Positions 276 to 63,851 of a stretch of 64,000 nt of DNA are shown one piece after another. Location: positions 1 through 64,000 of the forward strand of contig NZ_CANLZW010000006.1 in NCBI RefSeq assembly GCF_947495625.1, in the 5' to 3' direction. The translations under genes and the position numbers were made by a program. Below the pieces are notes generated by a model. That model was not told the origin of the DNA. It worked only from the letters and a program-made list of their open reading frames with translations, and made no database searches. Every line of letters starts with the position of its first letter. Positions within the stretch are counted from its first letter, which is position 1. The DNA is from an uncultured Cocleimonas sp. Lineage in GTDB: Bacteria > Pseudomonadota > Gammaproteobacteria > Thiotrichales > Thiotrichaceae.

Positions 276-309
276 CTTTTAGGCATTTTTTTGAAAAAAT
301 GCCTAAAAG
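276..309. terminator. Perfect 16-bp hairpin between IS110 remnant and dbpA
   Basis: Bases 276-291 and 294-309 (AAAAAATGCCTAAAAG) are exact reverse complements separated by two bases. The arms end in A/T runs, so the structure could stop transcription from either side, but there is no separate T-tract beyond the right arm. The right arm runs directly into the CACCCCCC-type repeat, so the palindrome appears to be that repeat's AT-rich flank duplicated in inverted form. Confidence 0.5.
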
Positions 310-320
310 GTGGGGGGTGT
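294..320 (-). repeat. CACCCCCCTACTT-family repeat, copy 1
   Basis: Read on the minus strand it is ACACCCCCC, ACC in place of TAC, then TTTTAGGCATTTTTT. The core differs at two bases from the common form. It lies upstream of dbpA, with its T-tract pointing away from that gene, and is fused to the 16-bp palindrome. Confidence 0.75.
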
Positions 321-1794: not shown

Positions 1795-1821
1795 CACCCC
1801 CACACTTTTAGGCGGTTTTTT
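1795..1821 (+). repeat. CACCCCCCTACTT-family repeat, copy 2
   Basis: CACCCCCACACTTTTAGGCGG followed by six T, 25 bases after the dbpA stop. The core is slightly diverged. In this position and orientation it could act as the dbpA terminator, though the stem is weak. Confidence 0.75.
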
Positions 1822-8455: not shown

Positions 8456-8484
8456 AAAAAAGTGCCTATAAGTACGGGGGTGTC
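8456..8484 (-). repeat. CACCCCCCTACTT-family repeat, copy 3
   Basis: Minus-strand reading: GACACCCCCGTACTTATAG, then GCACTTTTTT. One base of the core differs. It lies between the response regulator and the cytochrome gene, both on the plus strand, so its T-tract is on the wrong strand to terminate either. Confidence 0.8.
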
Positions 8485-12381: not shown

Positions 12382-12408
12382 CCACCCCCCTACTTTAGGG
12401 CGTTTTTT
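12382..12408 (+). repeat. CACCCCCCTACTT-family repeat, copy 5
   Basis: CACCCCCCTACTT exact core followed by TAGGGCG and seven T. CCCTA-CTT-TAGGG makes a five-base-pair hairpin, so it looks like a short intrinsic terminator. However it sits between the divergent EEP and DksA-like genes, upstream of the plus-strand gene, so it has no obvious transcript to stop. Confidence 0.85.
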
Positions 12409-12865: not shown

Positions 12866-15265
12866 ATGAGTAGTATCAAATTAAAGCCCGAGGAACTTTA
12901 TAGGGTAACGAATCCGGCAGACATTAAATATGACACGACTGCTGAAATCGATAACTCGAAATACGGTGCTATAGGTCAATCACGCGCTTTAGAGGCGATT
13001 GAATTTGGCGTTGGCATGCGCCGTGAAAACTACAATATTTATCTGGCTGGTTCCAAGGGGCTGGGCAAACATGCGGTTATGCAAAAAATATTGGAACAGC
13101 ACGCCAAAGATGAGAGCCCTCCATCAGATTGGTGCTATGTCGATAATTATGAGGAATTCTATAAACCAATTGCGCTTGAGTTACCAGCGGGAGTAGGCTT
13201 CAAATTGCGCACAGACATGGCGCAGTTAGTGAGTGATTTATTACTGGCAGTGCCCGCCGCTTATGAGAATGACGAATACCGCACTCGCATTCAAGAAATA
13301 GAAGGTGCCTTTGAAGAGCGCAGAGAAAAGGCGTTTGCAGAACTTGCCGAAGAGGCTGATGCAGAAGGCATCACCATGATCAATACGCCGACAGGCTATA
13401 CCATCGTCCCTATTAGTGACGGCAAGCCGATGTCGCAGGAAGATTTCAAAAAGCTGGATGAGATTGAGCAAAACACAAAACAGGAAAAAATAGACGAGAT
13501 AAAGGAAAAACTAAAAGATCTGGTGATGGAAGTACCTGTTTGGGAAAAAGAAACCAGAGAGCAATTCAAAGAGCTAAATACCAGCTTTGCTAAATCATCC
13601 GTTAAACCCTTTCTGAAAGCGTTAATGGACAAGTATTCGAAAACACCAGAAGTAAAGAAGTATCTTGATATCGTCAGTAAAGATATCGTTGAGAATATGC
13701 AGTTTTTCCTACCGGTAAATACGAACCCTGGCTTACTTGAAGGGCAGGGAGCACCACCATCGGCAGAACTTAGGCGCTATGAAATCAATGTGCTGGTTAA
13801 TAATGCCGAGCTCCAAGGTACGCCCATCGTATATGAGAATAACCCTACCTATAATAACCTTATCGGCAGGATAGAACACATCGCACAAGATGGCGCTTTG
13901 ATTACCGATTTCACGTTGATCAAACCCGGGGCATTACACAAAGCCAACGGTGGTTATTTGATTCTTGATATGCAGAATCTTTTAATGAATCCATTTGCAT
14001 GGGACGGTTTAAAACGGACCTTATACGCCAAAGAAATTCGCATGCAATCGCTAGAAAGAATGCTCAGTATCGTGAGCACGGTGACTCTAGAGCCAGAAGC
14101 GATTCCTTTAAACATCAAGGTTGTATTGGTTGGGGATCGATATCTTTATTATCTGTTAAAAACCTATGATCCCGAATTCAATGAATTATTCAAAGCGACC
14201 GCTGATTTTTCAGAATCGTTTGATCGAGATGCGGATTCCGTCAATCAACTGGCGCAGATTATCTCTATCGTTACAAACATAGAAAAAACACGCCCAATAA
14301 AACGCGAAGGTGTTGCCCGAATCATTGAGCATTGCTCCAGGGAAACGGGCGATGCTGAAAAGCTCTCTTTGCATCGGGGAAAGCTCAAAGATTTGATTGT
14401 CGAATCAGATTACTGGGCAGGCAAAAATGGTAAAGATGAAGTTGAAGTAGCGCATGTACAAAGCGCTATTGATTCACGTATTCGTCGAGCCGATCAAATA
14501 CAGGAACAAGTTCGGGAACAAATTTTACGTGACATCATTCTCATTGATACGGAAGGCGAATGTGTCGGTCAAATCAATGGCTTATCCGTTTATCAGCTTG
14601 GCGAAGACAGTTTTGGTCAGCCATCGCGGATAACGGCAACGGCGCGTTTGGGTCATGGCAATGTATTGGATATTGAGCGTGAAATTAAACTTGGCGGACC
14701 GATTCATTCCAAAGGTGTGATGATTTTATCGTCGTGTCTGGCGAATCGTTATGCCAAAGATCGACCCCTTTCACTCTCTGCCACACTGGTGTTTGAACAA
14801 AACTATGGTGGTGTTGATGGCGATAGCGCATCCATTGCTGAGTTTTGCGCGCTGATTTCAGCCCTCTCTGGGCTACCCATCAATCAAAGCTTTGCGGTGA
14901 CAGGCTCCATTAATCAGCATGGTGCAGCGCAGGCAATTGGTGGTGTTAACCATAAAATCGAAGGCTTTTTCGATATATGTAATGCCAGAGGTCTCAGCGG
15001 AAATCAGGGGGTGATTATTCCTCGCGCTAATCTAAAACATTTGATGTTAAAGCATGATGTTGTTGCAGCCGTAAAGAAAAAACAGTTTCACGTACACACA
15101 ATTGATGACGTTAATGATGCACTTGAATTGCTCATGGGAAAGAAAGTGGGCGTTGCCAATCGCAAAGGCAATTACCGCAGGGGCACGATAAATCATCTGG
15201 TAATGAAGCGTCTGGAAGAGCTGCATCAACTGCACGGTAAATACGCCATGACAGATAAAAGCTAG
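12866..15265 (+). CDS. ATP-dependent Lon-like protease (LonB/YcbZ type)
   Basis: A 799-residue protein of the Lon-related AAA family (AAA_32 plus Lon_C). The N-terminal part has a P-loop 'AGSKGLGKHAVM' near residue 62 and a long charged helical insertion (~130-260). The C-terminal protease domain contains the catalytic serine in 'GVDGDSASIAEF' (about residue 654) and lysine in 'GVNHKIEGF' (about 696), the Ser-Lys dyad of Lon proteases. It lacks the N-terminal LAN domain of classical Lon. AAGGG precedes the ATG. It is followed by the Usp gene after nine bases. Confidence 0.9.
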   Translation: MSSIKLKPEELYRVTNPADIKYDTTAEIDNSKYGAIGQSRALEAIEFGVGMRRENYNIYLAGSKGLGKHAVMQKILEQHAKDESPPSDWCYVDNYEEFYKPIALELPAGVGFKLRTDMAQLVSDLLLAVPAAYENDEYRTRIQEIEGAFEERREKAFAELAEEADAEGITMINTPTGYTIVPISDGKPMSQEDFKKLDEIEQNTKQEKIDEIKEKLKDLVMEVPVWEKETREQFKELNTSFAKSSVKPFLKALMDKYSKTPEVKKYLDIVSKDIVENMQFFLPVNTNPGLLEGQGAPPSAELRRYEINVLVNNAELQGTPIVYENNPTYNNLIGRIEHIAQDGALITDFTLIKPGALHKANGGYLILDMQNLLMNPFAWDGLKRTLYAKEIRMQSLERMLSIVSTVTLEPEAIPLNIKVVLVGDRYLYYLLKTYDPEFNELFKATADFSESFDRDADSVNQLAQIISIVTNIEKTRPIKREGVARIIEHCSRETGDAEKLSLHRGKLKDLIVESDYWAGKNGKDEVEVAHVQSAIDSRIRRADQIQEQVREQILRDIILIDTEGECVGQINGLSVYQLGEDSFGQPSRITATARLGHGNVLDIEREIKLGGPIHSKGVMILSSCLANRYAKDRPLSLSATLVFEQNYGGVDGDSASIAEFCALISALSGLPINQSFAVTGSINQHGAAQAIGGVNHKIEGFFDICNARGLSGNQGVIIPRANLKHLMLKHDVVAAVKKKQFHVHTIDDVNDALELLMGKKVGVANRKGNYRRGTINHLVMKRLEELHQLHGKYAMTDKS

Positions 15266-15274
15266 ATAACCGTA

Positions 15275-16063
15275 ATGTCGAATGAGCTAAATCAGAGAGG
15301 TAGAGGAGTACAGATTTTACTGGATAATCAGAAGGATCAACATGAATCGCTTTTGACTGCTGCTTTAATAGCCAGAAAACTAAAACTAGTACTGCAAGGT
15401 TTATTTATTGAAGAAGAGAACCAGATACGAGCTGCAGATTTGTCCTTTTCACGTGAAATTTCACTCTGGTCTGCTAAGGAAAGACAGATATCTAGTGAGA
15501 GCGTACATAGGATTTTACGCGCAAATGCGCGCCTTACACAAAAAGAATTAAAGAAGGTCGCGAATAGTGTAAAGGTCGATTGTTCATTTCAAGTTATTCG
15601 TGGTGAAAGAGTTCAGTGGATAAAAGACAATATTGATTCAGCGGAAATACTTTTTTTAGGGGGGAATAAATTAGTAAATAGATCGTTTCAGTCGCTTAAG
15701 TATTGTTGTGAAGTCACCCCCCCACTTTTAGCCGTATTTGATGGTTCAAAGGCATCGGAAAATGCTTTTAAAATAGCGGTGCAGATAGCCGAGAATAATA
15801 AAAAGTCTTTATTAGTACTCTTGCTTGTTAATGATTTGTCAGATGAACAAGCTATAAAAGATCAAATAAATCTGTTGATCCAAGACCATCCAGATATCAC
15901 TTTAGGCATTGAAACAATGACACAAAGCCAGTTTTCTAATAAATCAGGACAGATGCGCGCTCATATGCTGATCATTCCCCGTGATATGCAGTGGCTGCAA
16001 AATAAAGCACATTTTGGTGCATTTATTCAGCAAGCACATTGTCCGGTTGTATTAGTTAGATAG
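15275..16063 (+). CDS. Universal stress protein (tandem UspA-like domains)
   Basis: A 262-residue protein with two Usp-like segments. The second begins at 'PPLLAVFDGSKASENAFKIA', the usual start strand and helix of a Usp domain, and ends 'AHCPVVLVR', the usual final strand. The first domain is diverged. It is closely linked to the Lon-like protease (nine bases). Repeat copy 6 lies exactly across the codons for 'VTPPLLAVF' without disturbing the Usp pattern. Confidence 0.75.
   Translation: MSNELNQRGRGVQILLDNQKDQHESLLTAALIARKLKLVLQGLFIEEENQIRAADLSFSREISLWSAKERQISSESVHRILRANARLTQKELKKVANSVKVDCSFQVIRGERVQWIKDNIDSAEILFLGGNKLVNRSFQSLKYCCEVTPPLLAVFDGSKASENAFKIAVQIAENNKKSLLVLLLVNDLSDEQAIKDQINLLIQDHPDITLGIETMTQSQFSNKSGQMRAHMLIIPRDMQWLQNKAHFGAFIQQAHCPVVLVR
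15713..15740 (+). repeat. CACCCCCCTACTT-family repeat, copy 6 (inside usp gene)
   Basis: GTCACCCCCCCACTTTTAGC then CGTATTTG. One core base differs (C for T). The copy is wholly coding and in frame, encoding V-T-P-P-L-L-A-V-F. Confidence 0.75.
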
Positions 16064-16160
16064 GGGTTAGGTAATAGCTTGGTTTTTGCCTAAAAAAAGC
16101 CCCACATTTGCCTGACTATTTAAATACTGAGCATGTTGGCTGAGTTTAGTGATTCTAAGA

Positions 16161-16391
16161 TTATAACCAGCCTACCAGCTGTGCATGTACTCCACTATCT
16201 TTAACCCCATTAAGTACCTGCAAAGATTTTGTAGTCTCAGAATTAAAACCAACAATCATTAGATGAGGTTGTTTGTCAGGAAGTTCGGCTGAGACCACGC
16301 CTGCAAGTTTACAAACCTTTTGCGATAAATCATCTCGGTGTTGTTTATTTAATTCCTAGTTGATGTGCACGACTACTTCTGTATTTTTCAT
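16161..16391 (-). pseudogene. Small HMA-like gene interrupted by an in-frame amber codon
   Basis: On the minus strand ATG 16391 opens a 77-codon frame ending at TAA 16161-16163, broken only by TAG at codon 12 (16356-16358). Skipping that codon gives M-K-N-T-E-V-V-V-H-I-N, then 64 residues containing 'HLMIVGFNSE' and ending 'SGVHAQLVGWL'. This pattern resembles small ~70-residue ferredoxin-like or heavy-metal-associated-like proteins ('VVVHID ... HLMLVxYDP ... GVHAxLIG'). AGAGGA is correctly spaced before the ATG. A single nonsense mutation in an otherwise intact gene is the simplest reading. It is antisense to its neighbours, between the Usp and Host_attach genes. Confidence 0.65.
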
Positions 16392-16611
16392 GGAATTAAT
16401 CCTCTGATTATTCTTGTTAAATGCGCATAATATTCTCATGAACGAATATAGGCCTTTGGTTTTTTGAGTTCTGTGAAATAAGTCACTTATGAATAAAAAT
16501 TAAGACATATTAATGATAGAGGTCAAGACGTTAAACAGACATTCATGCCAGTATGACGTCGAAGTGGTTTAATAGAAGATTTGTCCTTAACTCAAAAAGA
16601 GGAGAATTAAA

Positions 16612-17049
16612 ATGTCTAAGATATGGATACTAGTAGCAGATGAAGCGAGAGCTAGAACTTTCACTGCCGATAAACCTGTAGATCCAATGGTTGAAATTAA
16701 CTCAATGACCTCACCCGAGGCAAAACTGCGAGATCAGGATTTGGTATCTGATAAACCCGGTAGAGTAATAGGCGGCTCTGATCAGAGCAAGCATGGTGTC
16801 GGAGAAAAATCAGAACATAAAGAGCAATATGCTGTTCGATTTGCAAAAGAAATTGGTGCTTATCTTGATGATAATTTACGTGATAAGTCATTTGGTAAAT
16901 TAATTCTGGTAGCGGCGCCTCATTTTCTGGGTTTGCTCCGCAAAGAATTAAGTAAAGAAGTTGAAGCGGTTATTTCACTTCAGCTTGATAAAGACTTAAG
17001 CAATATGGAAACCGAAGAGATTCGAGAGCATTTACCAAAATATTTATAG
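16612..17049 (+). CDS. Host_attach (PF10116-type) protein
   Basis: A 145-residue cytoplasmic protein of the family annotated as 'required for attachment to host cells', related to bacterial/archaeal eRF1-like (baeRF) folds. Typical features are the start 'IWILVADEARARTF', the middle 'FAKEIGAYL' and 'LILVAAPHFLGLLRKEL', and the end 'LDKDLSNMETEEIREHLPKYL' region. Its ribosome binding site AGAGGAG is strong. Despite the family name a role at the ribosome or in stress is more likely in a free-living bacterium; that is inference. Confidence 0.85.
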   Translation: MSKIWILVADEARARTFTADKPVDPMVEINSMTSPEAKLRDQDLVSDKPGRVIGGSDQSKHGVGEKSEHKEQYAVRFAKEIGAYLDDNLRDKSFGKLILVAAPHFLGLLRKELSKEVEAVISLQLDKDLSNMETEEIREHLPKYL

Positions 17050-17088
17050 TTATTCTTCGTTAGCTAACTTACTACAAGGATTGGATTA

Positions 17089-18480
17089 ATGAAAATTAGT
17101 TTTCATGGTGCGGCAGAAGGAGTGACAGGTTCTTGTCACCTTATTCAAGTAGCGGGTAAGAAGCTATTGATAGACTGTGGTCTGTTTCAGGGTTCAAGAG
17201 AGGTTGAGGAAGACAACGCTAAACCTTTCGGATTTGATCCCGCCGCTATCGACTACCTTTTATTGACTCATGCGCATCTGGATCATTGTGGTCGTATCCC
17301 ATTACTCGCTAAGCAGGGATTTGAAGGGGAAATTATTACGACCATGGCGACTCAGGAATTAGCCCGAGTCGTGATGCTGGATTCTGCTCATCTAAATGAA
17401 GAAGACGTGCGCCGAAAAAATCGTAAGCTGAAGCGTAAAAGACATGTTAAAGCACTGATTGAGCCTTTGTACACAACAGAAGATGCACTTTATGCGCTAA
17501 ATTACTTCGGTCGTAGAGCAAGCTATAACAAGCCCATTCAAGTAGCAAAAGGCATCAAAGCAACCTTTATAGATGCCGGGCATATTCTCGGTTCGGCATG
17601 TATTTTTCTTGAACTGGAAGAGGAAGGTCGTAAACGCACCGTATTGTTTTCTGGAGATTTGGGTACTAACGGTAGAGCTATCCTTCGAGACCCTGACACC
17701 CCTCCGCATGCTGATGTTGTGGTTATGGAAACGACTTATGGTGATAGAGCACATAAAGAACTTGAGCCGTCTATTGATGAGTTTTTTGAAGCGATTAATC
17801 AAACCGTATCACGTGGTGGAAATATCATTGTTCCAACATTTGCGCTAGAAAGAGCGCAAGAGCTTTTATATTACTTGCACGAGGGCTGGAAAGAAAAGCA
17901 GCTACCAAGAGGTTTGCAAGTGTTTCTTGATTCTCCTATGGCGATCTCAGCAACCAATATTTTTGCGCGCCATCCTGAATGCTATGACAGCGAAACCAAA
18001 AAGTTATTTGCCAGTGGTCATGATCCGTTTGATTTTCCATCCCTACATTTTTCTCATGAGGCATCAGATTCAATGGCGTTGAATAATATTCATAGCGGCG
18101 CGTTGATTCTTGCAGGTTCTGGCATGTGTACGGGTGGGCGAGTTCGTCATCACCTGAAAAAAAATATATGGCGAAAAGAATGTAGCGTTATCTTTGTTGG
18201 CTTTGCTGCCAGAGGAACACTCGCGCGTCGAATTGTTGATGGTGCTAAAACCGTTTCAATTTTTGGTGAAGAAATCGCAGTCAATGCTCAAATTTATACT
18301 ATCGGTGGTTTCTCTGCGCATGCCGGACAAGGTGAGTTACTCGCATGGCACAAAGCGATCAATAAACCTCAAATCACCTATCTCGTGCATGGTGAAGTGG
18401 ATGCGATGGAAACATTTGCAGGACTTTTAGAAGATACAGAAGTACGTATAGGTAAGCGCGGTCAGGAGTATGACCTTTAG
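17089..18480 (+). CDS. Beta-CASP metallo-beta-lactamase RNA hydrolase
   Basis: A 463-residue member of the metallo-beta-lactamase beta-CASP family (RNA processing / CPSF-like). Motifs are 'GVTGSCHL' at the start, 'THAHLDHCGRIP' (zinc-binding HxHxDH), 'DAGHILGSA', 'FSGDLG', the beta-CASP Asp/Glu region 'PTFALERAQEL', 'GSGMCTGGRVRHHL' and 'FSAHAGQGEL'. Members cleave RNA endo- or exonucleolytically. It follows the Host_attach gene by 39 bases and precedes the flavin reductase by 52, consistent with one transcript. Confidence 0.9.
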   Translation: MKISFHGAAEGVTGSCHLIQVAGKKLLIDCGLFQGSREVEEDNAKPFGFDPAAIDYLLLTHAHLDHCGRIPLLAKQGFEGEIITTMATQELARVVMLDSAHLNEEDVRRKNRKLKRKRHVKALIEPLYTTEDALYALNYFGRRASYNKPIQVAKGIKATFIDAGHILGSACIFLELEEEGRKRTVLFSGDLGTNGRAILRDPDTPPHADVVVMETTYGDRAHKELEPSIDEFFEAINQTVSRGGNIIVPTFALERAQELLYYLHEGWKEKQLPRGLQVFLDSPMAISATNIFARHPECYDSETKKLFASGHDPFDFPSLHFSHEASDSMALNNIHSGALILAGSGMCTGGRVRHHLKKNIWRKECSVIFVGFAARGTLARRIVDGAKTVSIFGEEIAVNAQIYTIGGFSAHAGQGELLAWHKAINKPQITYLVHGEVDAMETFAGLLEDTEVRIGKRGQEYDL

Positions 18481-18532
18481 TTCTCATTAGACAGTTTTAC
18501 CTTCAACTATTGTCGAAAATAGGAATAACATC

Positions 18533-19132
18533 ATGACTAAAGTATTAGCAGTGAATGGTTCTTATCGGGATGATGGTGTAACTGATAAAGCGGTAGATAT
18601 ACTCATTCAAACACTCTTGATTCAGGGGGTTGAAGTCGAGTATATCCATCTGCGTGATCATCCCATTGAATTCTGCCTAAATTGCCGAGAATGCACACAA
18701 CAAGCCGGAGAGAAGCCTGGCAAATGTGTCATCGATGATGGCTTAAATGAGTTGGTAGAAAAAATAGAAAACGCAGATGCTTACATCTTCGCTTCCCCAA
18801 CGAATTTTGGCTCTGTTACCGCCTTATACAAACGCTTCATGGAAAGATTAGTCGTTTATGGTTATTGGCCGTGGGGTGCGAAGTTTCCCCTGTTTCGAAA
18901 AGCTAAGATAAACCCGAAAAAGAAAGCTATTTTAGTGTCTTCGAGTGCGGCTCCCGGCTTTATGGGGCGGTGGTTGTTCGGAACGATTGGGCAACTAAAA
19001 AAATCAGCAGAAACGGTGGGCGCTAAACCTGTAGCGGTTTTATTTACGGGTATGGTAGCAAGTAAACCAGATCAGGAATTAACCGAAACAAAAATAATGG
19101 AAATACAACAGATGGCTGAAAAACTAATTTAA
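18533..19132 (+). CDS. NADPH-dependent FMN reductase / flavodoxin-family protein
   Basis: A 199-residue flavodoxin-fold protein. The FMN-phosphate loop 'AVNGSYRDDGVTDKAV' is at residues 5-20 and 'YIFASPTNFGSVTALYKRFMERL' is the second flavin-contact region. The pair 'FCLNCRECTQ' carries two cysteines (C-x2-C) often seen in iron-sulfur or redox variants of this family. It probably reduces quinones or flavins with NAD(P)H. It closes the Host_attach / beta-CASP / reductase gene run. Confidence 0.8.
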   Translation: MTKVLAVNGSYRDDGVTDKAVDILIQTLLIQGVEVEYIHLRDHPIEFCLNCRECTQQAGEKPGKCVIDDGLNELVEKIENADAYIFASPTNFGSVTALYKRFMERLVVYGYWPWGAKFPLFRKAKINPKKKAILVSSSAAPGFMGRWLFGTIGQLKKSAETVGAKPVAVLFTGMVASKPDQELTETKIMEIQQMAEKLI

Positions 19133-19162
19133 AAAAAACGCGTCAAAGTTGGCGGGTGGGTT
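19131..19162 (-). repeat. CACCCCCCTACTT-family repeat, copy 7 (degenerate)
   Basis: Minus-strand reading AACCCACCCGCCAACTTTG, then ACGCGTTTTTTTT. The poly-C is interrupted, but the AACTTTG and T-tract match the layout of the family. It lies in the 103-base gap between the flavin reductase and the phosphorylase. Confidence 0.4.
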
Positions 19163-19235
19163 AAAAATGAATTGTAAGATTTATCCTCTATTATTTATGC
19201 AATAAACTGGTTTTTCAGCTGCTTATGGACTCAAT

Positions 19236-20762
19236 ATGACCACTTTAAAATTACGTAAAATTGCCATCGATACCTACAAGGAAAATGTCGCATATCTGCA
19301 TCGCGATTGTCCCCTTTATCACACGGAAGGTTTTCAGGCGCTGAATAAAATCGAGATTTGGGATGGCGATGGAAGAGCGCCAGTCATTGCGGTACTAAAT
19401 ATCGTTGATGATGAAAATATCGTTGCGCCTGACGAGTTAGGATTGTGCGAACGAACGTTTCGCCAGTTTGGCGTAACCGAAGGTGAGTCTGTCAGCATCA
19501 ATCACGCGACACCTCCTGCTTCTATTCTTGCGGTACACAGTAAAATCGCGGGTAATAGTTTAAGCGCCGATGAGTATTTGAATATTTGTAAAGACATCGT
19601 AGCGAATCGTTATTCTAAAATTGAGATTGCCGCATTTTTAGTGGGAACGGCAGAATCAGGTTTGGAGCGCGAAGAAATTCTCTATTTAACGCAGGCTATG
19701 GTTGCCACAGGTGAAACGCTCGATTGGGAAGAATCTCTGGTTGTTGATAAGCATTGTATTGGCGGCATTCCCGGAAATCGTACCACCATGATTGTTACCC
19801 CTATTATTGCTGCGCATGGAATGCTGATGCCAAAGACATCAAGCCGTGCAATTACATCACCTGCAGGAACAGCCGATACGATGGAGGTGTTGGCTAATGT
19901 CGATTTGCCGCTAGATAAACTGCATTCGATTTTACGCCACCAGCGCGCATTTATAGCATGGGGCGGCACCGCTAAACTCGCACCAGCTGATGACTTTTTT
20001 ATCTCCGTGTCGCGTCCGCTTTCACTGGATTCATCCAGTCAAATGATCGCGTCCATTTTGTCGAAAAAAGTTGCTGCTGGCTCAACGCATTTACTCATCG
20101 ATATTCCTATCGGCCCCAGTGCAAAAGTGAAATCACAATCTCATGCCTTAAAACTCCGTAAAATGTTTGAATATGTCGGTGACCGAATGGGGCTTGAAAT
20201 TGATGTGGTGATCACTGATGGTAAACAGCCCGTAGGCAAAGGAATTGGGCCGGTGCTCGAGGTTCGCGATGTGATGCAAATACTGCAGAATGATCCTGAA
20301 GCGCCTCGTGATTTACGCGAAAAGTCATTGCAATTAGCGGGTCGTATACTCGAGTTTGATCCTGATGTTAGAGGCGGTGAAGGTTATAAATTAGCCTGCA
20401 ATATACTCGAATCAGGGCGTGCGCTGGATAAAATGCAATCGATTATCAAAGCACAGGGTGAAAATACTGAGCCGGCTTTGCTGGGAAAATTAAAACATAC
20501 TGTTACTGCGCTGGAGAGTGGAACTGTAGAGGCGATAGATAATTTACAAATGGCGAAGATAGCAAGATTGGCAGGCTCGCCAATGGATAAAGGAGCGGGG
20601 GTTGATTTGCATAAAAAAATAGGCGATCAAGTTAGCCAGGGCGATCCTTTATATACTATTTACGCTGAAATTAATGCTGACTTTAATTTTGCCAAAGACT
20701 CTAGTGATAAGAATAATGGTTATCGAATCGAGTCTTCTAATCAGACATCGAGCCAGACATGA
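19236..20762 (+). CDS. AMP phosphorylase / thymidine phosphorylase family protein
   Basis: A 508-residue protein of the archaeal-type nucleoside-monophosphate phosphorylase family (TIGR02645-like), longer than classical DeoA (~440). It has the N-terminal extension of that group (residues 1-90) and the family core '[24 protein letters not shown]', where DeoA has a KHSTGG motif, then '[17 protein letters not shown]', '[12 protein letters not shown]' and '[13 protein letters not shown]'. Archaeal AMP phosphorylase splits AMP and phosphate into adenine and ribose-1,5-bisphosphate. Here it is translationally coupled (ATGA) to a PRPP-synthetase homologue, which supports a ribose-phosphate role. Exact substrate is inferred. 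Confidence 0.85.
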
Positions 20763-21682
20763 CATCGTCTTCAACGTATTTATTGCTAGGTTTTCCTGAG
20801 TCAAAACGACAAGCCCAAGAGTTGGCGAAACTCACAGGAATTTCGTATGCAGATATTGATATCCACGTCTTTCCTGATGGTGAAAGCAAAATCACTTTGC
20901 CAGCAGATGCATTGAAATCTACAACTCAGATAGTCATTTATCGTAGTCTCGATCATCCCAATAATAAACTCTTAGAGCTAATTATGGCCGCACGAGGCGC
21001 AAGGCAACTCGGGATTAAGAAGATTATACTGGTAGCCCCTTATCTGGCTTATATGCGCCAGGACATAGCGTTTAACCCCGGTGAAGTCGTCAGTCAGAAA
21101 GTGATTGGTAAACTATTGTCAGAAAGCTTTGAGGGCGTGATTACCGTAGATTCACATCTGCATCGCATCAGTAAACTGTCTGAAGCCATCCCGGTTGAAT
21201 ATGCGATTAATTTAACCGCGACTGAGCCCATGGGAGAATTTCTAAAACAACATGTTGATAGTCCTTTTTTGCTTGGCCCTGATGGAGAATCACGGCAATG
21301 GGTCGAGGCTATTGCCTTACCGAATAAAATGGACAGCAGTGTCGCTACTAAAGTACGTCGTGGTGACAAAAACGTAGAGATCAATTTGCCCGCTGGTGAT
21401 TATCAAGGGCGGAATATGGTACTGGTTGATGATGTGGCAAGTTCCGGTCAAACACTGATTCAGGCGGCAAAACAACTTCAGCAATATCAACCTGCTTCTA
21501 TATCGGTATTGGTGACGCATGCTTTATTTATGGAAGGTTCTATCGAAGCGTTGAAAGAGCAAGGTGTAATCAATATCTGGAGTTGTAACAGCATTAAGCA
21601 TCCAACGAATCAGGTTTCTTTGACGGGTTTATTAGCAAGAGAATTAAAGGAAATTCTGCAATTAACTGGTGAAAATACTTAA
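20759..21682 (+). CDS. Ribose-phosphate pyrophosphokinase homologue
   Basis: A 307-residue phosphoribosyltransferase-fold protein of the PRPP synthetase family, which makes PRPP from ribose-5-phosphate and ATP. Recognisable features are 'FPDGES', '[13 protein letters not shown]', 'YLAYMRQD', 'DSHLHR', the loop 'KVRRGDK' and the PRPP-binding loop '[10 protein letters not shown]'. The last differs from the usual VDDxxDTGGT, and the sequence is clearly apart from housekeeping Prs. It overlaps the AMP phosphorylase gene by four bases and precedes the two-domain kinase by 11, so the three are probably one functional unit. Confidence 0.85.
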
Positions 21683-21693
21683 AGGTCCTGAAA

Positions 21694-23256
21694 ATGAGTT
21701 TTAACATTAAGAAGCTGTTAAATCCCGATGTTTATGATCATCCTGTTAAAAACATTGAGTTAATTGAAACCCATATCTCCTGGGTTGTGTTAACCGGTGA
21801 CTATGCCTATAAAATTAAGAAACCGGTGAATTTTGGCTTTCTGGATTTTTCCACCTTGGAAAAAAGAAAGAAATACTGTGAGCAGGAATTAAGCCTCAAT
21901 CGCAGATTAGCCCCTGATATCTACTTGGATGTTGTTACTATTTCAGGCACTCCTGAATCTCCTTTGATTTCAAATGGCAGTAATTCAATAGAATATACAG
22001 TTGAATACGCGGTGAAAATGCGCCAATTTCCACAATCGGTACAACTCGATAATATGCTTCACGCAGGTAAACTCGGGAATAAGCATATCGATAGCATTGC
22101 GCAGATGGTTGCAGCGTTTCATGAAAATACAGCGGCAGCAGGCGCTGACACGAATTACGGTAAGCCTGAAAGAATTTCCCAACCAGTCAAAGAAAACTTT
22201 GAGCACATAAGCGAAGCGTTGAAAGTATCTGCTTATGACGAAAAGTTGAGTGCGTTAAAAAAATGGAGTGAATCTGAATTTGCCCGGTTACAACCGGTTT
22301 TCTCCCAGCGCAAACGCGATGGTTTCATCAAAGAATGTCATGGTGACATGCACTTACGCAATCTCGTGTGGTTGAATGACAAAGCATTGGCTTTCGATTG
22401 TATAGAGTTTAATGATAACTTACGTTGGATTGATGTCATCAGCGAAATAGCTTTTTTGATTATGGATTTACAAGATCGCAAGCAAGATCATCTCGCTTAT
22501 CGTTTTTTAAATGCGTATCTGGAAATTACAGGCGACTACGAAGGGCTTTCAATCCTCCCTTTTTATCTCAGTTATCGTGCGATGGTGCGAGCCAAAGTTG
22601 ATGCCTTGCGTATTCAGCAAATAACAGATGATTCGAAAAACACAGCGCTGGCAGAGTTTGATTCTTACATCGCGTTGGCTTTACGCTATGCCAAAGAACG
22701 ATCTCCTGCATTAATCATTATGCGGGGTTTATCTGCATCGGGTAAAAGTACGGTATCCCAGCAAATTCTGGAGAACACTGGCGCGATAAGAATACGTTCC
22801 GATGTCGAGCGCAAGCGCATGTTTGATGTATCTCTTGATGTTACAGCGAAAACGTCGAATGGTGTTAATGAAGGCATTTACACTTCTGAATCATCTGAAC
22901 AAACTTATGAAAAGCTTCTTGAGCTAGCATCGATAATCATAAATGCTGGCAATACCGTTTTTGTCGATGCTGCATTTTTAAAACAACAACAACGAGAGCC
23001 TTTTAAAAAACTGGCTAAAAGTAGGGGGGTGTCATTTGTTATTGTCGAAGTCACTGCTTCCCATGATGTGTTGCGAGAGCGAATTATTGCGAGAAAAAAT
23101 GACGTGTCGGATGCGGATCTTGCGGTGCTTGAGCATCAAATAGCTCAATGGAAAGCGTTGAATGAAGAGGAGCTTGAGTTTGCTGTTACCGTGAATACTG
23201 AAAAGCCGTTGCAGTTGAAATGCCTGCTTGATGAGATTAAAACGTTGACTGACTAA
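21694..23256 (+). CDS. Two-domain protein: aminoglycoside-phosphotransferase-like domain plus P-loop kinase
   Basis: A 520-residue fusion. Residues ~20-320 resemble an APH/ChoK-type kinase: 'YKIKKPVNF' (ATP lysine region), the catalytic 'CHGDMHLRNLVW' and the metal-binding 'FDCIEFND'. Residues ~335-510 form a small P-loop kinase with Walker A 'GLSASGKST', followed by 'RIRSDVERKR', 'VFVDAAFL' and 'VLRERI', like gluconate/PhnN-type kinases. The family is usually annotated as bifunctional APH/ATP-binding protein of unknown function. Its position after the phosphorylase and PRPP-synthetase genes suggests a sugar-phosphate or nucleotide substrate. Repeat copy 8 lies in the coding sequence. Confidence 0.8.
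   Translation: MSFNIKKLLNPDVYDHPVKNIELIETHISWVVLTGDYAYKIKKPVNFGFLDFSTLEKRKKYCEQELSLNRRLAPDIYLDVVTISGTPESPLISNGSNSIEYTVEYAVKMRQFPQSVQLDNMLHAGKLGNKHIDSIAQMVAAFHENTAAAGADTNYGKPERISQPVKENFEHISEALKVSAYDEKLSALKKWSESEFARLQPVFSQRKRDGFIKECHGDMHLRNLVWLNDKALAFDCIEFNDNLRWIDVISEIAFLIMDLQDRKQDHLAYRFLNAYLEITGDYEGLSILPFYLSYRAMVRAKVDALRIQQITDDSKNTALAEFDSYIALALRYAKERSPALIIMRGLSASGKSTVSQQILENTGAIRIRSDVERKRMFDVSLDVTAKTSNGVNEGIYTSESSEQTYEKLLELASIIINAGNTVFVDAAFLKQQQREPFKKLAKSRGVSFVIVEVTASHDVLRERIIARKNDVSDADLAVLEHQIAQWKALNEEELEFAVTVNTEKPLQLKCLLDEIKTLTD
23005..23033 (-). repeat. CACCCCCCTACTT-family repeat, copy 8 (inside kinase gene)
   Basis: The minus strand reads GACACCCCCCTACTTTTAGC then CAGTTTTTT: exact 13-base core. 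On the coding strand it encodes K-K-L-A-K-S-R-G-V-S, an ordinary helix-turn-strand of the P-loop domain, so no insertion is apparent. Confidence 0.9.
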
Positions 23257-23297
23257 TCCCAATTATTGTTGTGGGGTTAGATATAGTCTCAGTTATA

Positions 23298-23326
23298 GGT
23301 CACCCCGCCACTTATGGGCACTTTTT
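23298..23326 (+). repeat. CACCCCCCTACTT-family repeat, copy 9
   Basis: GGTCACCCCGCCACTTATGG, then GCACTTTTT. Two core bases differ. It lies between the convergent kinase and mtfA genes and could serve as terminator for the kinase operon. Confidence 0.75.
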
Positions 23327-24101
23327 AGTACTTATCTAATTTTAAATAATCCTGCTTATAAAACAGCACCAATTGCTTATAGACCTCTGCACAATATTCA
23401 AAGAGAATTTCAGGCGCAGTAAAAAAGTATTCACTGATCACGGCAAAAAACTCAGCGGGATTGGTCGCAGCGTATTCGTTGATTGTTGTTGGCTCGAAAT
23501 TTTCTATTTGATTCACCAGAATATCGTAAGCGTGGCTGAGTGAATCGGTCCATTGCTTGCGGTGCATTTTCGGATGCAATGGTGGCATACCATTGGCACG
23601 ACCATTGAGCATATCCAGTTTGTGCGTAAATTCATGAATCACAACATTACGCCCGGGGTGATTATGTAAGCTGTCGCGTTCGACGTCAGTCCATGCGAGT
23701 ATTACTGGTCCTCTGGACCAGGCTTCACCACTTAACGCAGAACTGGTTTCGTGAACTAGCCCGAAATTATCGGTGACGTTTCGATATACCACAAAGTTAT
23801 CAGGGTAGACGACGATTTCTATCCAGCCATCGTAATAGCTCATATTGAGGTTTAAAATAGGAAGGCAGGCCTGTGCAGCGATCATCAGCTTTTTTTCATC
23901 ATCGACGACAAACCCACGAATGCCAGTGAAGGTTTTTTCGTAAATAAATAGACTGCTGAGCCTTTTTAATCGCGCTAACTCTCTGGGTTTTAATGATTTT
24001 AAAATTTGAATTTTATTGATTGCCTTAAGCCACAAAGCATCATCAACTAAATGTTTTCGCAGGATAAATTCTTCTTTAAATTTTCTAATCAAATCGAACA
24101 T
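23325..24101 (-). CDS. mtfA: MtfA-type zinc peptidase
   Basis: A 258-residue protein of the MtfA (DUF980, peptidase M90) family. E. coli MtfA binds and inactivates the Mlc repressor and has aminopeptidase activity. The zinc-binding H-E-x-x-H is seen as 'VIHEFTHKLDMLNG', with a downstream 'NPAEFFAVISEYFF' that supplies the third ligand region. Length matches the family (~260). It is convergent with the kinase operon and divergent from clsB. Confidence 0.88.
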   Translation of the reverse strand: MFDLIRKFKEEFILRKHLVDDALWLKAINKIQILKSLKPRELARLKRLSSLFIYEKTFTGIRGFVVDDEKKLMIAAQACLPILNLNMSYYDGWIEIVVYPDNFVVYRNVTDNFGLVHETSSALSGEAWSRGPVILAWTDVERDSLHNHPGRNVVIHEFTHKLDMLNGRANGMPPLHPKMHRKQWTDSLSHAYDILVNQIENFEPTTINEYAATNPAEFFAVISEYFFTAPEILFEYCAEVYKQLVLFYKQDYLKLDKY

Positions 24102-24310
24102 GAAATTGTTACCGTGTAGTGCGTAAACTCTGTTATTGAAAAAGTTGGCCAGTTTGTAAAGGTTATTTTCTAGAATGCGCTTAAATTGTTATTGTGGCTT
24201 TTAAACTATAGTTGGGCTGGACTACAGTTATTCAATAGGTATCTATATGAGCCACAATCAATACAGGTTAAGATCAGAGCATTTATTCATGAATATGACA
24301 GCTTAAGTTA

Positions 24311-25441
24311 ATGAAGCACAAGCACTCACAAGAGACCTTTCCATGGCGTGAAGGACATTCTATTGAATTCCTCATCGATGGTGAGCAGTTTTTTCCTGCT
24401 ATGTTGAAAGCCATAGAAAAGGCAGAAAACTATGTGTTAATGGAGATGTATTTATTTGAATCGGGGGCAGTCGCAAATAAATTCATCAAAGCCTTTTCTA
24501 ACGCGGCATTAAGAGGCGTCTGTGTGCAGTTACTTGTTGATGGTTATGGTGCAAAGGCATTGTCTTCGCAGGATAGAGAACGACTCACATCTTCAGGTGT
24601 GCAGTTGGCTTTTTACAATCCGCTCAGTTTCAAAACGCTCAAAGGACTAAAAAATAATTTAAAACGAACCCATCGAAAGTATCTGATTATCGATGGCGAG
24701 AGTGTGTTTGTCGGTGGCGCAGGTATTACAGATCATTTTTATGGTGATAACGCCTGGCGTGAAACGGTTGTGGATATTAAAGGAGAAGTGATCTCTGATT
24801 GGCATACCTTGTTTCTCGATATGTTTAGTCAATGGTCAGGCCAGCCTGTACCAGCAGCGATACAACCAGCATCGATTGATAATGATATTCTGGGGCGCTT
24901 GTCCTACACCAGCGGTGGTGAAAAATTAGAAATTAAACGTGTTCTACTTAATCGCATGAATAAATGCCAGAGCCGCGTCTGGTTTGCTTCCGCCTATTTT
25001 ATCCCCTCGAGAAAAGTCAGGAAAGCGCTGCGACGTGCTGCATTGCGAGGCAATGATGTGCGTTTATTATTGCCGGGACCTATTACGGACCATCCATCTG
25101 TGCGTTACGCCAGCAGACGATATTATGCGAGATTGCTACGTTTTGGTGTCCGAATTTACGAATACCAGGGGCGTTTTACGCATACTAAAATGGTGTTAAT
25201 CGATGATTGGTATACGATCGGTTCTTCAAATGTGGATCGCTGGAATTTTCGCTGGAATCTGGAAGCTAATCTGGAAGTTCGGAGTAAACAAAGTGCTGAC
25301 ATCGCCCGAAAAGTTTTAGAAGATGACTTCCATAACTGCGAAGAAATTCACTATAAATTATGGGTCAATCGCTCGAAAATACAGCGATTTAAAGAGTGGC
25401 TATGGGGCAAAGTCGATCTGTGGATGACTCGAAACCTTTAA
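24311..25441 (+). CDS. clsB: Cardiolipin synthase B-type phospholipase D family protein
   Basis: A 376-residue phosphatidyltransferase with two HKD motifs, 'HRKYLIIDGESVFVGGAG' (~133-150) and 'HTKMVLIDDWYTIGSSNVD' (~297-315). It has no N-terminal membrane helices, which fits ClsB rather than ClsA. ClsB makes cardiolipin or phosphatidylglycerol. A 19-codon frame (24247-24306, M-S-H-N-Q-Y...) ends four bases before the clsB ATG and might be a leader peptide or chance. The Shine-Dalgarno is weak. An EEP protein of the kind found beside clsB in E. coli lies 12 kb upstream. Confidence 0.88.
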   Translation: MKHKHSQETFPWREGHSIEFLIDGEQFFPAMLKAIEKAENYVLMEMYLFESGAVANKFIKAFSNAALRGVCVQLLVDGYGAKALSSQDRERLTSSGVQLAFYNPLSFKTLKGLKNNLKRTHRKYLIIDGESVFVGGAGITDHFYGDNAWRETVVDIKGEVISDWHTLFLDMFSQWSGQPVPAAIQPASIDNDILGRLSYTSGGEKLEIKRVLLNRMNKCQSRVWFASAYFIPSRKVRKALRRAALRGNDVRLLLPGPITDHPSVRYASRRYYARLLRFGVRIYEYQGRFTHTKMVLIDDWYTIGSSNVDRWNFRWNLEANLEVRSKQSADIARKVLEDDFHNCEEIHYKLWVNRSKIQRFKEWLWGKVDLWMTRNL

Positions 25442-25443
25442 AA

Positions 25444-25472
25444 GTCACCCCCCTACTTTAGGGGGCTTTTTT
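25444..25472 (+). repeat. CACCCCCCTACTT-family repeat, copy 10
   Basis: GTCACCCCCCTACTTTAGGG then GGCTTTTTT: exact core, CCCTA-CTT-TAGGG hairpin and a T-tract, three bases after clsB. A good terminator position between convergent genes. Confidence 0.9.
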
Positions 25473-30973: not shown

Positions 30974-31003
30974 AAAAAAACGGCCTAAAAGTAGGGGGGT
31001 GAC
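30974..31003 (-). repeat. CACCCCCCTACTT-family repeat, copy 11
   Basis: Minus-strand reading GTCACCCCCCTACTTTTAGG then CCGTTTTTTT: exact core. It lies downstream of the real tsf terminator and in the opposite orientation, so it is not a terminator for tsf. Confidence 0.9.
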
Positions 31004-39335: not shown

Positions 39336-39929
39336 ATGTTAAGAGACAACCATATATGTAGTGACAACAAAGGCAATAAACGTTATGCGTTTATTGCCTT
39401 TGTTTTTTTAGTACAACTGTTTATCAGTAATAATTTATTCGCCAAAGAGTTTGTATCAGTAGGTGTGGTTAATGTTACTTATTTAATGGAAAAAGCCCCT
39501 CAGTCCGAGGTGGCTAGCGCACAATTAAAAAGTAAATTTTCCCCACAAGAAAAAAAATTAGCGCTTGAATTAGATGAATTGAATAAATTAGAAGTTGAAC
39601 TGGATAATATAAAGAAAACTAAAAAGAATATTAATCTGCAGCGTCAAAAAGAACGTGAGTTAAGATCCAGGAAACGCATTCGCAGTCGAACACTTCAAGA
39701 CTTTAGAGAGGAGCTGCGTTTTGCACGTGATTCAGCTCTCGATGATGTGCAAAAAGAAGTTTTCAGAGCGATAGATGAAGTCAGAATTCAGCAAAATATC
39801 GACATCGTTCTACAAGATTACGTTTCTGCCAGCCAGGCTGTAGACATCACTCCCTTAGTTCTCGAATATCTTAAGAATAAGCTGGATGCTTCTCAATCTG
39901 GGAATACGGCGGATAACAAAACTCAATGA
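39336..39929 (+). CDS. skp: OmpH/Skp-family periplasmic chaperone
   Basis: A 197-residue periplasmic chaperone for unfolded outer membrane proteins. After a signal peptide (hydrophobic residues ~17-35, cleavage after 'LFA') come 'VGVVNVTYLMEKAPQS', a long charged coiled-coil (~60-140) and the C-terminal 'AIDEVRIQQNIDIVLQD' strand, as in Skp. The predicted ATG 39336 has no visible Shine-Dalgarno, and the signal-peptide codons contain a perfect terminator hairpin (39368-39409). The gene overlaps the lpxD start region. Identity is supported by the bamA-skp-lpxD order. Confidence 0.85.
   Translation: MLRDNHICSDNKGNKRYAFIAFVFLVQLFISNNLFAKEFVSVGVVNVTYLMEKAPQSEVASAQLKSKFSPQEKKLALELDELNKLEVELDNIKKTKKNINLQRQKERELRSRKRIRSRTLQDFREELRFARDSALDDVQKEVFRAIDEVRIQQNIDIVLQDYVSASQAVDITPLVLEYLKNKLDASQSGNTADNKTQ
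39368..39409 (+). terminator. Intrinsic-terminator hairpin inside skp signal-peptide codons
   Basis: CAAAGGCAATAAACG (39368-39382) pairs perfectly with CGTTTATTGCCTTTG (39388-39402) across loop TTATG, followed by seven T (39403-39409). It lies 162 bases after the bamA stop and inside the skp reading frame (codons 11-25). It may terminate bamA transcripts, or attenuate skp when the leader is not being translated. Confidence 0.7.
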
Positions 39930-40963
39930 TGTTTTTATTAGAAAACCTAGCCGAGCTAACTGGCTCTGCGCTTAAAGGTGATAAATCTGTAGAAATTAAT
40001 GCCGTTGCTTCTTTGCAGGATGCTAAGCAGGGACAAATTAGTTTTGTTAGTAATCCTAAATACATATCCTCTTTAGAAAGTACTAATGCATCAGCGGTTA
40101 TCTTGTCTCCAGAACTGGCACAAGAGTATTCAGGAAATGCGCTCATCAACAGCGATCCTTATCTTACGTTTGCCAAAGTTTTAAACATAATCTATAAAAA
40201 ACAAAAGCTAAATGGTTTTATTCATCCTAGTGCCAGTGTTGCTGAGGATGTAAATATTGCTGCTGATGTGAATATCGCCGCCAATGTGATCATTGAATCA
40301 GGGGTGACTATAGAAAAAGATACACAGATTGGTGCAGGTAGCTATATAGGTGAAGGCTCGCATATACAGCAAAATGTAATCATTAATCCCAATGTAACCT
40401 TATATTCTGATACTAAAATTGGAAGGGATTGCATTATTCATTCAGGAGTCGTTATAGGTTCTGATGGATTCGGTTTTGCGCCGACTAAAGATAAAAGTTG
40501 GTATAAAATTCCCCAGATAGGAAATGTGATCCTTAAAAAGGATGTTGAAGTTGGTGCGAATTGCACAATCGATCGCGCTGCTTTAGGTTCTACAATAATA
40601 GGTGAAGGCGTAAAGCTTGACTGTCAAATACACATTGGCCATAACGTTACCATTGACGATTTTTCAATTATGGCAGCAGGCTCTGTAGTAGGCGGAAGTA
40701 CTTCCATCGGCAAGCGCTGTCAAATTGGTGGAGCATCAGCTATATCAGGTCATTTAGAAATCGCTGATGATGTCGTTATCACTGGTAAATCAATGGTAAT
40801 AAAATCGATTAAAAGTGGGGGGGTGTATTCTTCAGGTATACCATCTGATGCTAATAACAAATGGCGTCGTAATGCTGCTAGATTTAGACATTTAGATGAG
40901 ATGGCTAAAACAATCAAAGAGCTTGAAAAAAAGCTGAATATAAAAACGACAAAAAGCGAGTAA
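39926..40963 (+). CDS. lpxD: UDP-3-O-(3-hydroxyacyl)glucosamine N-acyltransferase
   Basis: A 345-residue trimeric left-handed beta-helix acyltransferase, third step of lipid A synthesis. The N-terminal uridine-binding domain (~1-100) is followed by hexapeptide repeats ('[19 protein letters not shown]'), the catalytic His in 'IHIGHNVTI' and the conserved 'GVYSSGIP' before the C-terminal helix. Two starts are possible, ATG 39926 or 39929; both overlap the skp TGA. Repeat copy 12 is embedded in the codons just before 'GVYSSG'. Confidence 0.95.
40801..40830 (-). repeat. CACCCCCCTACTT-family repeat, copy 12 (inside lpxD)
   Basis: Minus-strand reading ATACACCCCCCCACTTTTAA then TCGATTTT. One core base differs (C for T). 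On the coding strand it encodes K-S-I-K-S-G-G-V-Y, which lines up with the usual LpxD sequence before G-V-Y-S-S-G-I-P without added length. Confidence 0.75.
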
Positions 40964-44859: not shown

Positions 44860-44878
44860 TTCGGTTTATTCGCACAAC

Positions 44879-44907
44879 AAAAAATGGGCTAAAAGTAGGG
44901 GGGTGAC
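44879..44907 (-). repeat. CACCCCCCTACTT-family repeat, copy 13
   Basis: Minus-strand reading GTCACCCCCCTACTTTTAGC then CCATTTTTT: exact core. It forms an inverted pair with copy 14, 47 bases away. Confidence 0.9.
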
Positions 44908-44954
44908 ATTTAAATACTCCAAATCACAGTAAACACTGTTATGGGAAATAAAAA

Positions 44955-44983
44955 TGACACCCCCCTACTTATGAATGATATTT
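44955..44983 (+). repeat. CACCCCCCTACTT-family repeat, copy 14
   Basis: TGACACCCCCCTACTTATGA, then ATGATATTT: exact core but a poor T-tract. With copy 13 it makes a long imperfect inverted repeat in which the two G/C cores can pair. Confidence 0.85.
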
Positions 44984-45084
44984 ATGCGGCAACGCCTTCT
45001 CTTCGGGTCCGCATTAAACAACAATGCTTTTGTCTCGATTAGTCTCGGCTCGTTTTTTTCGTTTAAAAACGCAAATAGAATTTA

Positions 45085-49030: not shown

Positions 49031-49062
49031 AAACACACCCCCCTACTTATAGCCCTTTTTTT
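49031..49062 (+). repeat. CACCCCCCTACTT-family repeat, copy 15
   Basis: ACACACCCCCCTACTTATAG, then CCCTTTTTTT: exact core. It lies 17 bases upstream of the dnaE start in plus orientation, where a working terminator would block dnaE unless the promoter lies within it or beyond. Confidence 0.88.
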
Positions 49063-53200: not shown

Positions 53201-53230
53201 AGACACCCCCCTACTTTTGGCAATATTTTT
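53201..53230 (+). repeat. CACCCCCCTACTT-family repeat, copy 16
   Basis: AGACACCCCCCTACTTTTGG, then CAATATTTTT: exact core. Flanking genes are both on the minus strand while the T-tract is on the plus strand, so it cannot terminate either. Confidence 0.88.
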
Positions 53231-56135: not shown

Positions 56136-56165
56136 GGTCACCCCCCTACTTATGGGCACTTTTTT
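56136..56165 (+). repeat. CACCCCCCTACTT-family repeat, copy 17
   Basis: GGTCACCCCCCTACTTATGG, then GCACTTTTTT: exact core and good T-tract, 95 bases past arsJ and before the convergent tonB. Suitable as a terminator. Confidence 0.9.
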
Positions 56166-63821: not shown

Positions 63822-63851
63822 GGTCACCCCCCTACTTTAGGGCACTTTTTT
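63822..63851 (+). repeat. CACCCCCCTACTT-family repeat, copy 18
   Basis: GGTCACCCCCCTACTTTAGG, then GCACTTTTTT: exact core and CCCTA-CTT-TAGGG hairpin with T-tract. It lies between convergent genes and is the best terminator-like copy. Confidence 0.9.

Follow-up and report, generated by a model that had tools for sequence, protein, structure and literature searches.

The repeat described here, some 30 bases long and scattered through the genome of an uncultured Cocleimonas sp., a marine sulfur bacterium, is most probably a DNA uptake sequence-like tag, a reading to which we assign a probability of about 0.72. We met it in a stretch of 64,000 nucleotides (the window) and followed it through the rest of the genome, Cocleimonas flava and other members of the family. 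In its favour are the excess of copies over a reversed control, the strong consensus, the even spacing, the insertion-free genes that carry it, the existence of dialects and the finding of PilQ and ComEC across the genus; against it are a leading-strand bias and a density about a quarter of the approximately one copy per kb of known uptake sequences. By genomic tests, orientation and the machinery genes apart, the repeat resembles an uptake sequence. We regard it as a candidate rather than a proven member, one descriptive feature being at odds.

The consensus, A6-NN-SCYTWW-AAGTRGGGGGGTG-WC-TTT, is nearly the same in this genome and in C. flava. Allowing at most one mismatch, 1071 copies were counted in 4.6 Mb (about 1 per 4.3 kb), compared to a single one for the reversed control. 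Perfect copies are commoner than singly mismatched ones in both species: copies at zero, one and two mismatches number 90, 29 and 17 in 464 kb of this genome and 70, 20 and 22 in 400 kb of C. flava. The intervals between copies vary less than chance would give (CV 0.753 over 126 gaps versus a simulated 0.991 ± 0.088, with 0 of 500 simulations as low), and copy density along the sampled arms is even, at 1.9–2.5 per 10 kb.

Most copies avoid genes. Using longest-ORF calls rather than a trained gene finder, we place 393 of the 448 copies sampled in C. flava outside ORFs, though ORFs make up 83% of the sample; the copies within ORFs are 55 of 448 in C. flava and 15 of 119 in the sample of the window's genome. 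Between C. flava genes the density is 2.83 copies per kb in convergent gaps, 1.42 in tandem gaps and 0.74 in divergent gaps. Close pairs (less than 120 nt apart) number 25 among the 448 copies, 24 of them inverted, and 8 of the 14 pairs in −/+ arrangement are spaced 40–42 nt.

In the window, a scan at up to three mismatches returned 16 matches where 0.31 were expected from shuffled sequence, which excludes chance. Three are in the usp, kinase and lpxD genes and 13 lie outside the listed ORFs (Table 1). The region from 44875 to 44985, with an inverted pair between convergent ORFs, has a folding energy of −35.8 kcal/mol (z −6.1) and is a possible two-way terminator. Elsewhere in the window, a 12-base tandem repeat at 56860–57183, present in 19 overlapping registers within a minus-strand TonB-like gene, probably encodes a spacer of the TonB-like protein.

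Table 1. Copies of the repeat in the window and the genes carrying the three coding copies
Feature	Position	Strand	Detail	Basis
Motif core outside ORFs	304..319	(+)	2 mismatches	motif scan
Motif core outside ORFs	1795..1810	(-)	2 mismatches	motif scan
Core outside ORFs	8467..8482	(+)	2 mismatches; copy also present in C. flava, with slightly different core	
Core outside ORFs	12383..12398	(-)	identical core in C. flava	
Universal stress protein (Usp) gene with copy	15275..16063	(+)		ORF + Pfam
Motif copy in usp-like gene	15710..15741, core 15715-15730	(-)	gene strand reads E-V-T-P-P-L-L-A-V-F	
Weak match outside ORFs	19143..19158	(+)	3 mismatches; chance possible	
APH/AAA_33 P-loop kinase gene with copy	21694..23256	(+)		ORF + Pfam
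Motif copy in kinase gene	23005..23037, core 23016-23031	(+)	encodes KKLAKSRGVSF	
Core directly past stop codon	25446..25461	(-)	short hairpin, then T run	
Core outside ORFs	30986..31001	(+)	0 mismatches	
lpxD with copy	39926..40963	(+)		ORF + Pfam
Motif copy in lpxD	40799..40831, core 40810-40825	(+)	variant of core	alignment
Inverted pair, copy 1	44890..44905	(+)	between convergent ORFs; C. flava core identical	
Inverted pair, copy 2	44958..44973	(-)	one core base different in C. flava	
Core outside ORFs	49036..49051	(-)	identical core in C. flava	
Core outside ORFs	53204..53219	(-)	identical core in C. flava	
Core outside ORFs	56139..56154	(-)	identical core in C. flava	
Core outside ORFs	63825..63840	(-)	core different in C. 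flava	

Origin of the coding copies

The original prediction held that the copies at 15713, 23005 and 40801 sit in frame within genes, that LpxD has no extra length at its copy, and that this copy most likely arose by base changes or gene conversion, not by insertion of an element. All three do lie in frame within ORFs; the Pfam assignments are clear for LpxD and the AAA_33/APH kinase and marginal for Usp, whose match is barely above threshold (24.9 versus 24 bits). Alignment with homologues revealed no extra length in the window protein at any of the three copies; the outcome that would have spoken against the prediction, an insertion of some 30 bases compared to related genes, was looked for at the three sites and not found. 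For LpxD, 20 relatives taken from 32 other genomes with a match show no insertion in the window protein: 18 are gap-free in the compared stretch, and the distant G020 and G013 are one residue longer. For the kinase, no gap occurs in the compared stretch of 10 aligned relatives (from 11 other genomes with a match, a weak one in G046 being omitted). The Usp test is thin, with no insertion relative to one relative, the sole match in 34 other genomes.

We extended the comparison to the 70 in-ORF copies in sampled DNA of the two species (the window and a further 400 kb of this genome; 2.0 Mb of C. flava minus two mostly masked stretches). A comparable stretch was found in the other species for 14 of them, and in none of these 14 further comparisons does a gap fall within five residues of the copy. 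The motif is shared in 10 of the 14, representing five gene pairs each counted from both sides, and absent from the counterpart in the other four; these are only 24–29% identical and are probably distant paralogues. Where a gene pair is at least 50% identical (lpxD, usp, the kinase and four more), C. flava has kept the motif in 7 of 7 cases. Together the alignments support an origin by substitution rather than insertion at the three coding sites, in line with the prediction. The property is a published one for uptake sequences: by the same insertion test, coding copies of the Haemophilus USS arise without insertion, according to PMC1626085.

We restrict the no-insertion claim to coding copies because about half of the copies aligned more widely contain gaps. 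A spanning C. flava alignment exists for 42 of 119 copies; the core is identical in 30 of these, and mean identity is 0.92 in the core versus 0.86 in the flanks. Of the 42, 21 copies, mostly intergenic, are interrupted by a gap within the 31 bases compared (in the core in 5).

The coding copies are also conserved at the nucleotide level between the two species. The window's LpxD shares 89% identity with the protein of C. flava DSM 24830, and the core recurs unaltered in C. flava at each of the three sites (lpxD, usp and kinase); it is absent at the aligned sites of every other relative. The suggested comparison of synonymous codons, made against C. flava, gave one difference inside the three copies, whereas the remainder of each gene predicts about 8.0 in sum (observed/expected 1/3.6 for lpxD, 0/3.4 for usp and 0/1.1 for the kinase). 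The kinase alone is weakly informative, with no nucleotide difference over 11 codons of the copy and 10% synonymous change in the gene outside it. Usp is to our reading the most telling of the three sites, its 13-base core being identical despite a protein identity of 50%, and the six nucleotide differences in 11 codons of the copy all falling outside that core. Codons that are rare in 17 window genes are used within the copies, namely GGG (8% of Gly), AGG (6% of Arg) and CCC (12% of Pro). Genes for a Lon-like protease, the Usp, a Host_attach/baeRF protein, a phosphoribosyltransferase, the kinase and a phospholipase D-like protein are clustered at 12866–25441 in what looks like a stress island.

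Dialects and uptake genes in the genus

Five other members of the genus carry the same motif (dialect A) in 254–999 copies, compared to 0–8 matches in each of the 24 genomes searched from the family's other genera. The string GGGGGRTG is in large excess over its reversed control in G002 (541/37), G009 (592/30) and G010 (303/24). Among the copies listed, G002 and G009 (dialect B) have AAAAATATRTAAAAAACRGGGGGATGGGTAT and close variants, and G010 (dialect C) has TACAAAWCAKCGAAAAACAGGGGGGGTGG or close variants. Most listed copies of the three dialects retain an A-rich tract upstream and the string AARNAGGGG, then RTG. The genus has at least three dialects, resembling in this the dialects of Neisseriaceae (PMC3630211).

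In an LpxD tree, built from one gene, dialect B forms one clade (92/96), as do four of five tested dialect A genomes (90/93); G007 is unplaced and G008 is not in the tree. G001, 97% complete, has dialect C-like TACAAAWCAKCGAAAAACAGGGGGGGTGG or variants at 9 of the 34 places listed, and its lineage may be in the course of losing the motif. By LpxD it is closest to G005, where the GGGGGRTG excess is small (37 versus 18 in the control), as it is in G006 (16 versus 6), in which the 16 places have no common flank. On contig C31 of G009 there are three dialect C copies, the other listed copies of that genome being mostly dialect B; these three reflect either assembly contamination or DNA recently acquired from a species with dialect C. 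The pattern AANNGGGGGRTG, searched in 60 genomes of the family, captured dialect B (227 and 276 matches) and part of C (55) and did not catch A. In 48 genomes of other genera it gave 0–30 matches, mostly near the reversed controls and about two- to fourfold above them in a few (G030 30/15, G067 24/6).

ComEC and PilQ each exceed their curated cut-offs in 11 of the 12 genomes of the genus. In motif-rich G004 (89% complete) the ComEC match is just 28 bits, and in motif-rich G008 (80% complete) the PilQ secretin match is below cut-off. Both proteins are also present in the motif-less G005 and G006, and ComEC in 12 of 14 control genomes; since they occur without the motif, they do not discriminate. 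The sampled stretches further encode one FimT/GspH-like and one PilE-like prepilin, besides four others that, in our naming, resemble type II secretion pilins.

If the repeat is an uptake tag, a type IV pilus receptor would prefer motif-bearing DNA, and recombination with the DNA taken up would keep rebuilding the motif at every place able to accommodate it, a case of molecular drive. Within genes, the motif would persist only in frames giving acceptable residues.

Orientation of the copies and competing explanations

In C. flava 321 of 441 sampled copies (73%) are on the leading strand, which was assigned from GC skew, with contig order and the C3 arm placed from skew alone. In tandem gaps 149 of 201 copies follow the leading strand and 102 of 201 the gene strand. 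The orientation there ignores gene strand, so that the bias does not stem from transcription, and gene orientation was discarded as an explanation. The majority orientation flips on contig C2 at about 116.9 kb, at what we take to be a dif-like site (25 of 28 bases of the E. coli consensus). Left of this site 14 of 19 copies point right; on its terminus side (C2 116.9–700 kb) 58 of 70 are on the leading strand, pointing left. On the origin side (C1 480–940 kb) only 39 of 70 (56%) are on the leading strand, a difference with Fisher p 0.0009 between groups of our own choosing. In the sample of this genome 82 of 119 copies match the sign of the local 20 kb GC skew, compared to only 5 of 13 in the window, the C. 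flava counterpart of which lies in the weakly oriented origin-side stretch.

One explanation, compatible with an uptake tag, is that the bias is purely an effect of GC skew on a G-rich motif, and we place this somewhat short of even odds. Runs of G5 outside the motif are themselves 64% leading (373 of 580), and the 73% of the motif does not differ significantly from an assumed 69% (p 0.09). However, it does differ from the G5 control (p 0.0002), the bias is higher on the terminus side though intergenic skew is lower there (0.036 versus 0.048), and among octamers with four G and no C the KOPS-like ones are 71% leading, the others 60%. We conclude that GC skew explains the leading-strand bias in part, and that the bias is probably a secondary property of the motif.

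A further contribution may come from chromosome segregation. In the sampled C. flava contigs the KOPS octamers GGGNAGGG are polar, 51 to 5, and so are those of the form GRRNAGGG, 313 to 58, with a polarity that strengthens as the terminus is approached (49 to 25 at first, 54 to 9 further on). GAANAGGG octamers are polar as well (141 to 34 in the sampled contigs of C. flava, G003), suggesting GRRNAGGG as a broadened KOPS form in the genus. The motif core contains the octamer AAGTAGGG, one base from GRRNAGGG; outside the motif AAGTAGGG itself is found 32 to 7. With such a near-KOPS octamer in the core, wrongly pointed copies near dif may misdirect FtsK and be lost. That the repeat belongs to a third, independently evolved uptake lineage with at least three dialects in one genus, that its shared core AARNAGGGG also serves to orient FtsK weakly, and that chromosome segregation thereby polices the direction of this self-DNA tag, above all near dif, is a tentative idea that we think rather unlikely to hold in full. 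It is weakened by AARNAGGG outside the motif, the polarity of which hardly changes along the arm (63 to 37 in the origin region and 54 to 28 in that of the terminus) and at 307 to 140 (69%) is no better than that of CARNAGGG at 183 to 81. The link between motif orientation and KOPS is therefore suggestive only, and the octamers were chosen after inspection.

A stronger form of this idea, in which the motif is mainly a polar segregation sequence of the KOPS/AIMS type, read by FtsK and without any role in uptake, seems to us improbable. The leading-strand preference independent of gene strand, its rise from origin to terminus side, the flip at the dif-like site and the presence of AARNAGGGG in most listed copies of three dialects are all consistent with it, but the genome already has the separate and more polar octamers GGGNAGGG and GRRNAGGG, and the motif is about 30 bp long with an A-tract, not 8 bp. 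Moreover, 27% of the copies are wrongly pointed and in the window only a minority point with the local skew, inverted pairs are present, density is even along the arms, and dialect turnover would be unexpected for KOPS.

A family of transcription terminators is a very doubtful alternative. The density peak between convergent genes is in keeping with terminators, as are the strong fold of the 44890/44958 pair and a hairpin before a T run at 25446 (z −2.65). Against this, close pairs are few among the 448 copies, orientation in tandem gaps ignores the gene strand, copies are found inside genes too, and the folds of those at 23005 and 40799 are no stronger than in shuffled sequence (z 1.42 and −0.76; folding energies were computed for four stretches only). 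A function in termination alone was rejected on the independence from gene strand.

Least probable of all is a mobile repeat of the REP/MITE type, dispersed by RAYT or another transposase, for which the restriction to one genus, the position mostly outside ORFs, some hairpin-forming inverted pairs, the GTAG/GTGG in the core (a feature of REPs) and Y1_Tnp in 7 of 12 genus genomes, with four matches in the window's genome, would speak, but which is at odds with the lack of insertions at the coding copies tested, the even spacing, the core conserved in most alignable C. flava copies and the failure to find Y1_Tnp (profile PF01797, no match) in five of the six dialect A-rich genomes (G003, G004, G007, G008 and G011). 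For the coding copies, a transposon or MITE origin was set aside, there being no insertions at the sites and no shared transposase; it is largely refuted, and the predicted unlikeness to a transposon-derived repeat is borne out. Phage origin was also dropped, as viral contigs lack a family of copies; two exact 14-base scans of such contigs gave 17 and 62 stretches, of which L247 alone holds two matches and each of the others one.

Comparison with known uptake and segregation sequences

Our best reading is of a third lineage of uptake-sequence-like system, with an orientation perhaps constrained by chromosome segregation. In 2013 the requirement for a short uptake sequence was called unique to Neisseria species and Pasteurellaceae (PMC3630211). 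Among the papers listed for Cocleimonas, Thiotrichales, Leucothrix and Thiothrix we found no report of such a motif, most subscription papers being outside the scope of the search; nor, in the literature searched and a statistics paper apart, did we find one linking an uptake sequence with KOPS. As far as these searches show, a replication-oriented uptake tag would be new. If the reading is right, a further lineage with its own dialects provides an independent test of receptor-motif co-evolution and of whether molecular drive alone builds uptake tags. The replication-oriented version, if true, connects natural transformation with chromosome segregation.

PMC1626085 gives as features of USS and DUS a predominance of perfect copies, regular spacing, inverted pairs and a non-coding preference. 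That paper and PMC2346458 describe no significant genome-wide orientation bias for known uptake sequences.

The USS of Pasteurellaceae, with the core AAGTGCGGT and AT-rich motifs, is similar to the Cocleimonas motif in joining a short core to A/T tracts, in its strong consensus, even spacing, inverted pairs and insertion-free origin, and in having two versions in different subclades, as Cocleimonas likewise has versions. The core is different, however, and the A-tract of Cocleimonas lies 5' of it, unlike in USS. The motif is also about four times sparser than USS or DUS, is biased with replication, and has only 12% of its copies in ORFs in C. flava compared to 65% for the H. influenzae USS.

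With the DUS of Neisseriaceae the motif shares copy numbers of hundreds to thousands, the preference for non-coding DNA, inverted pairs, and dialects around a common invariant core. In contrast, DUS are 10–12 bp without flanking motifs, have no reported orientation bias, and have a receptor, ComP, where none can be named for the Cocleimonas motif.

REP/RAYT elements are similarly short, interspersed, genus-specific repeats with some hairpin pairs; they are set apart by the missing insertion signature in Cocleimonas genes and by the Y1 transposase not found in most motif-rich genomes. Like the KOPS of E. coli and Vibrio, finally, the motif is G-rich, mostly on the leading strand and in its majority directed towards dif. 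It does not contain the KOPS octamer itself, its core octamer differing by one base from the KOPS-like form in this genome, and it is much longer, has dialects and is less polar (73% versus 84–91%).
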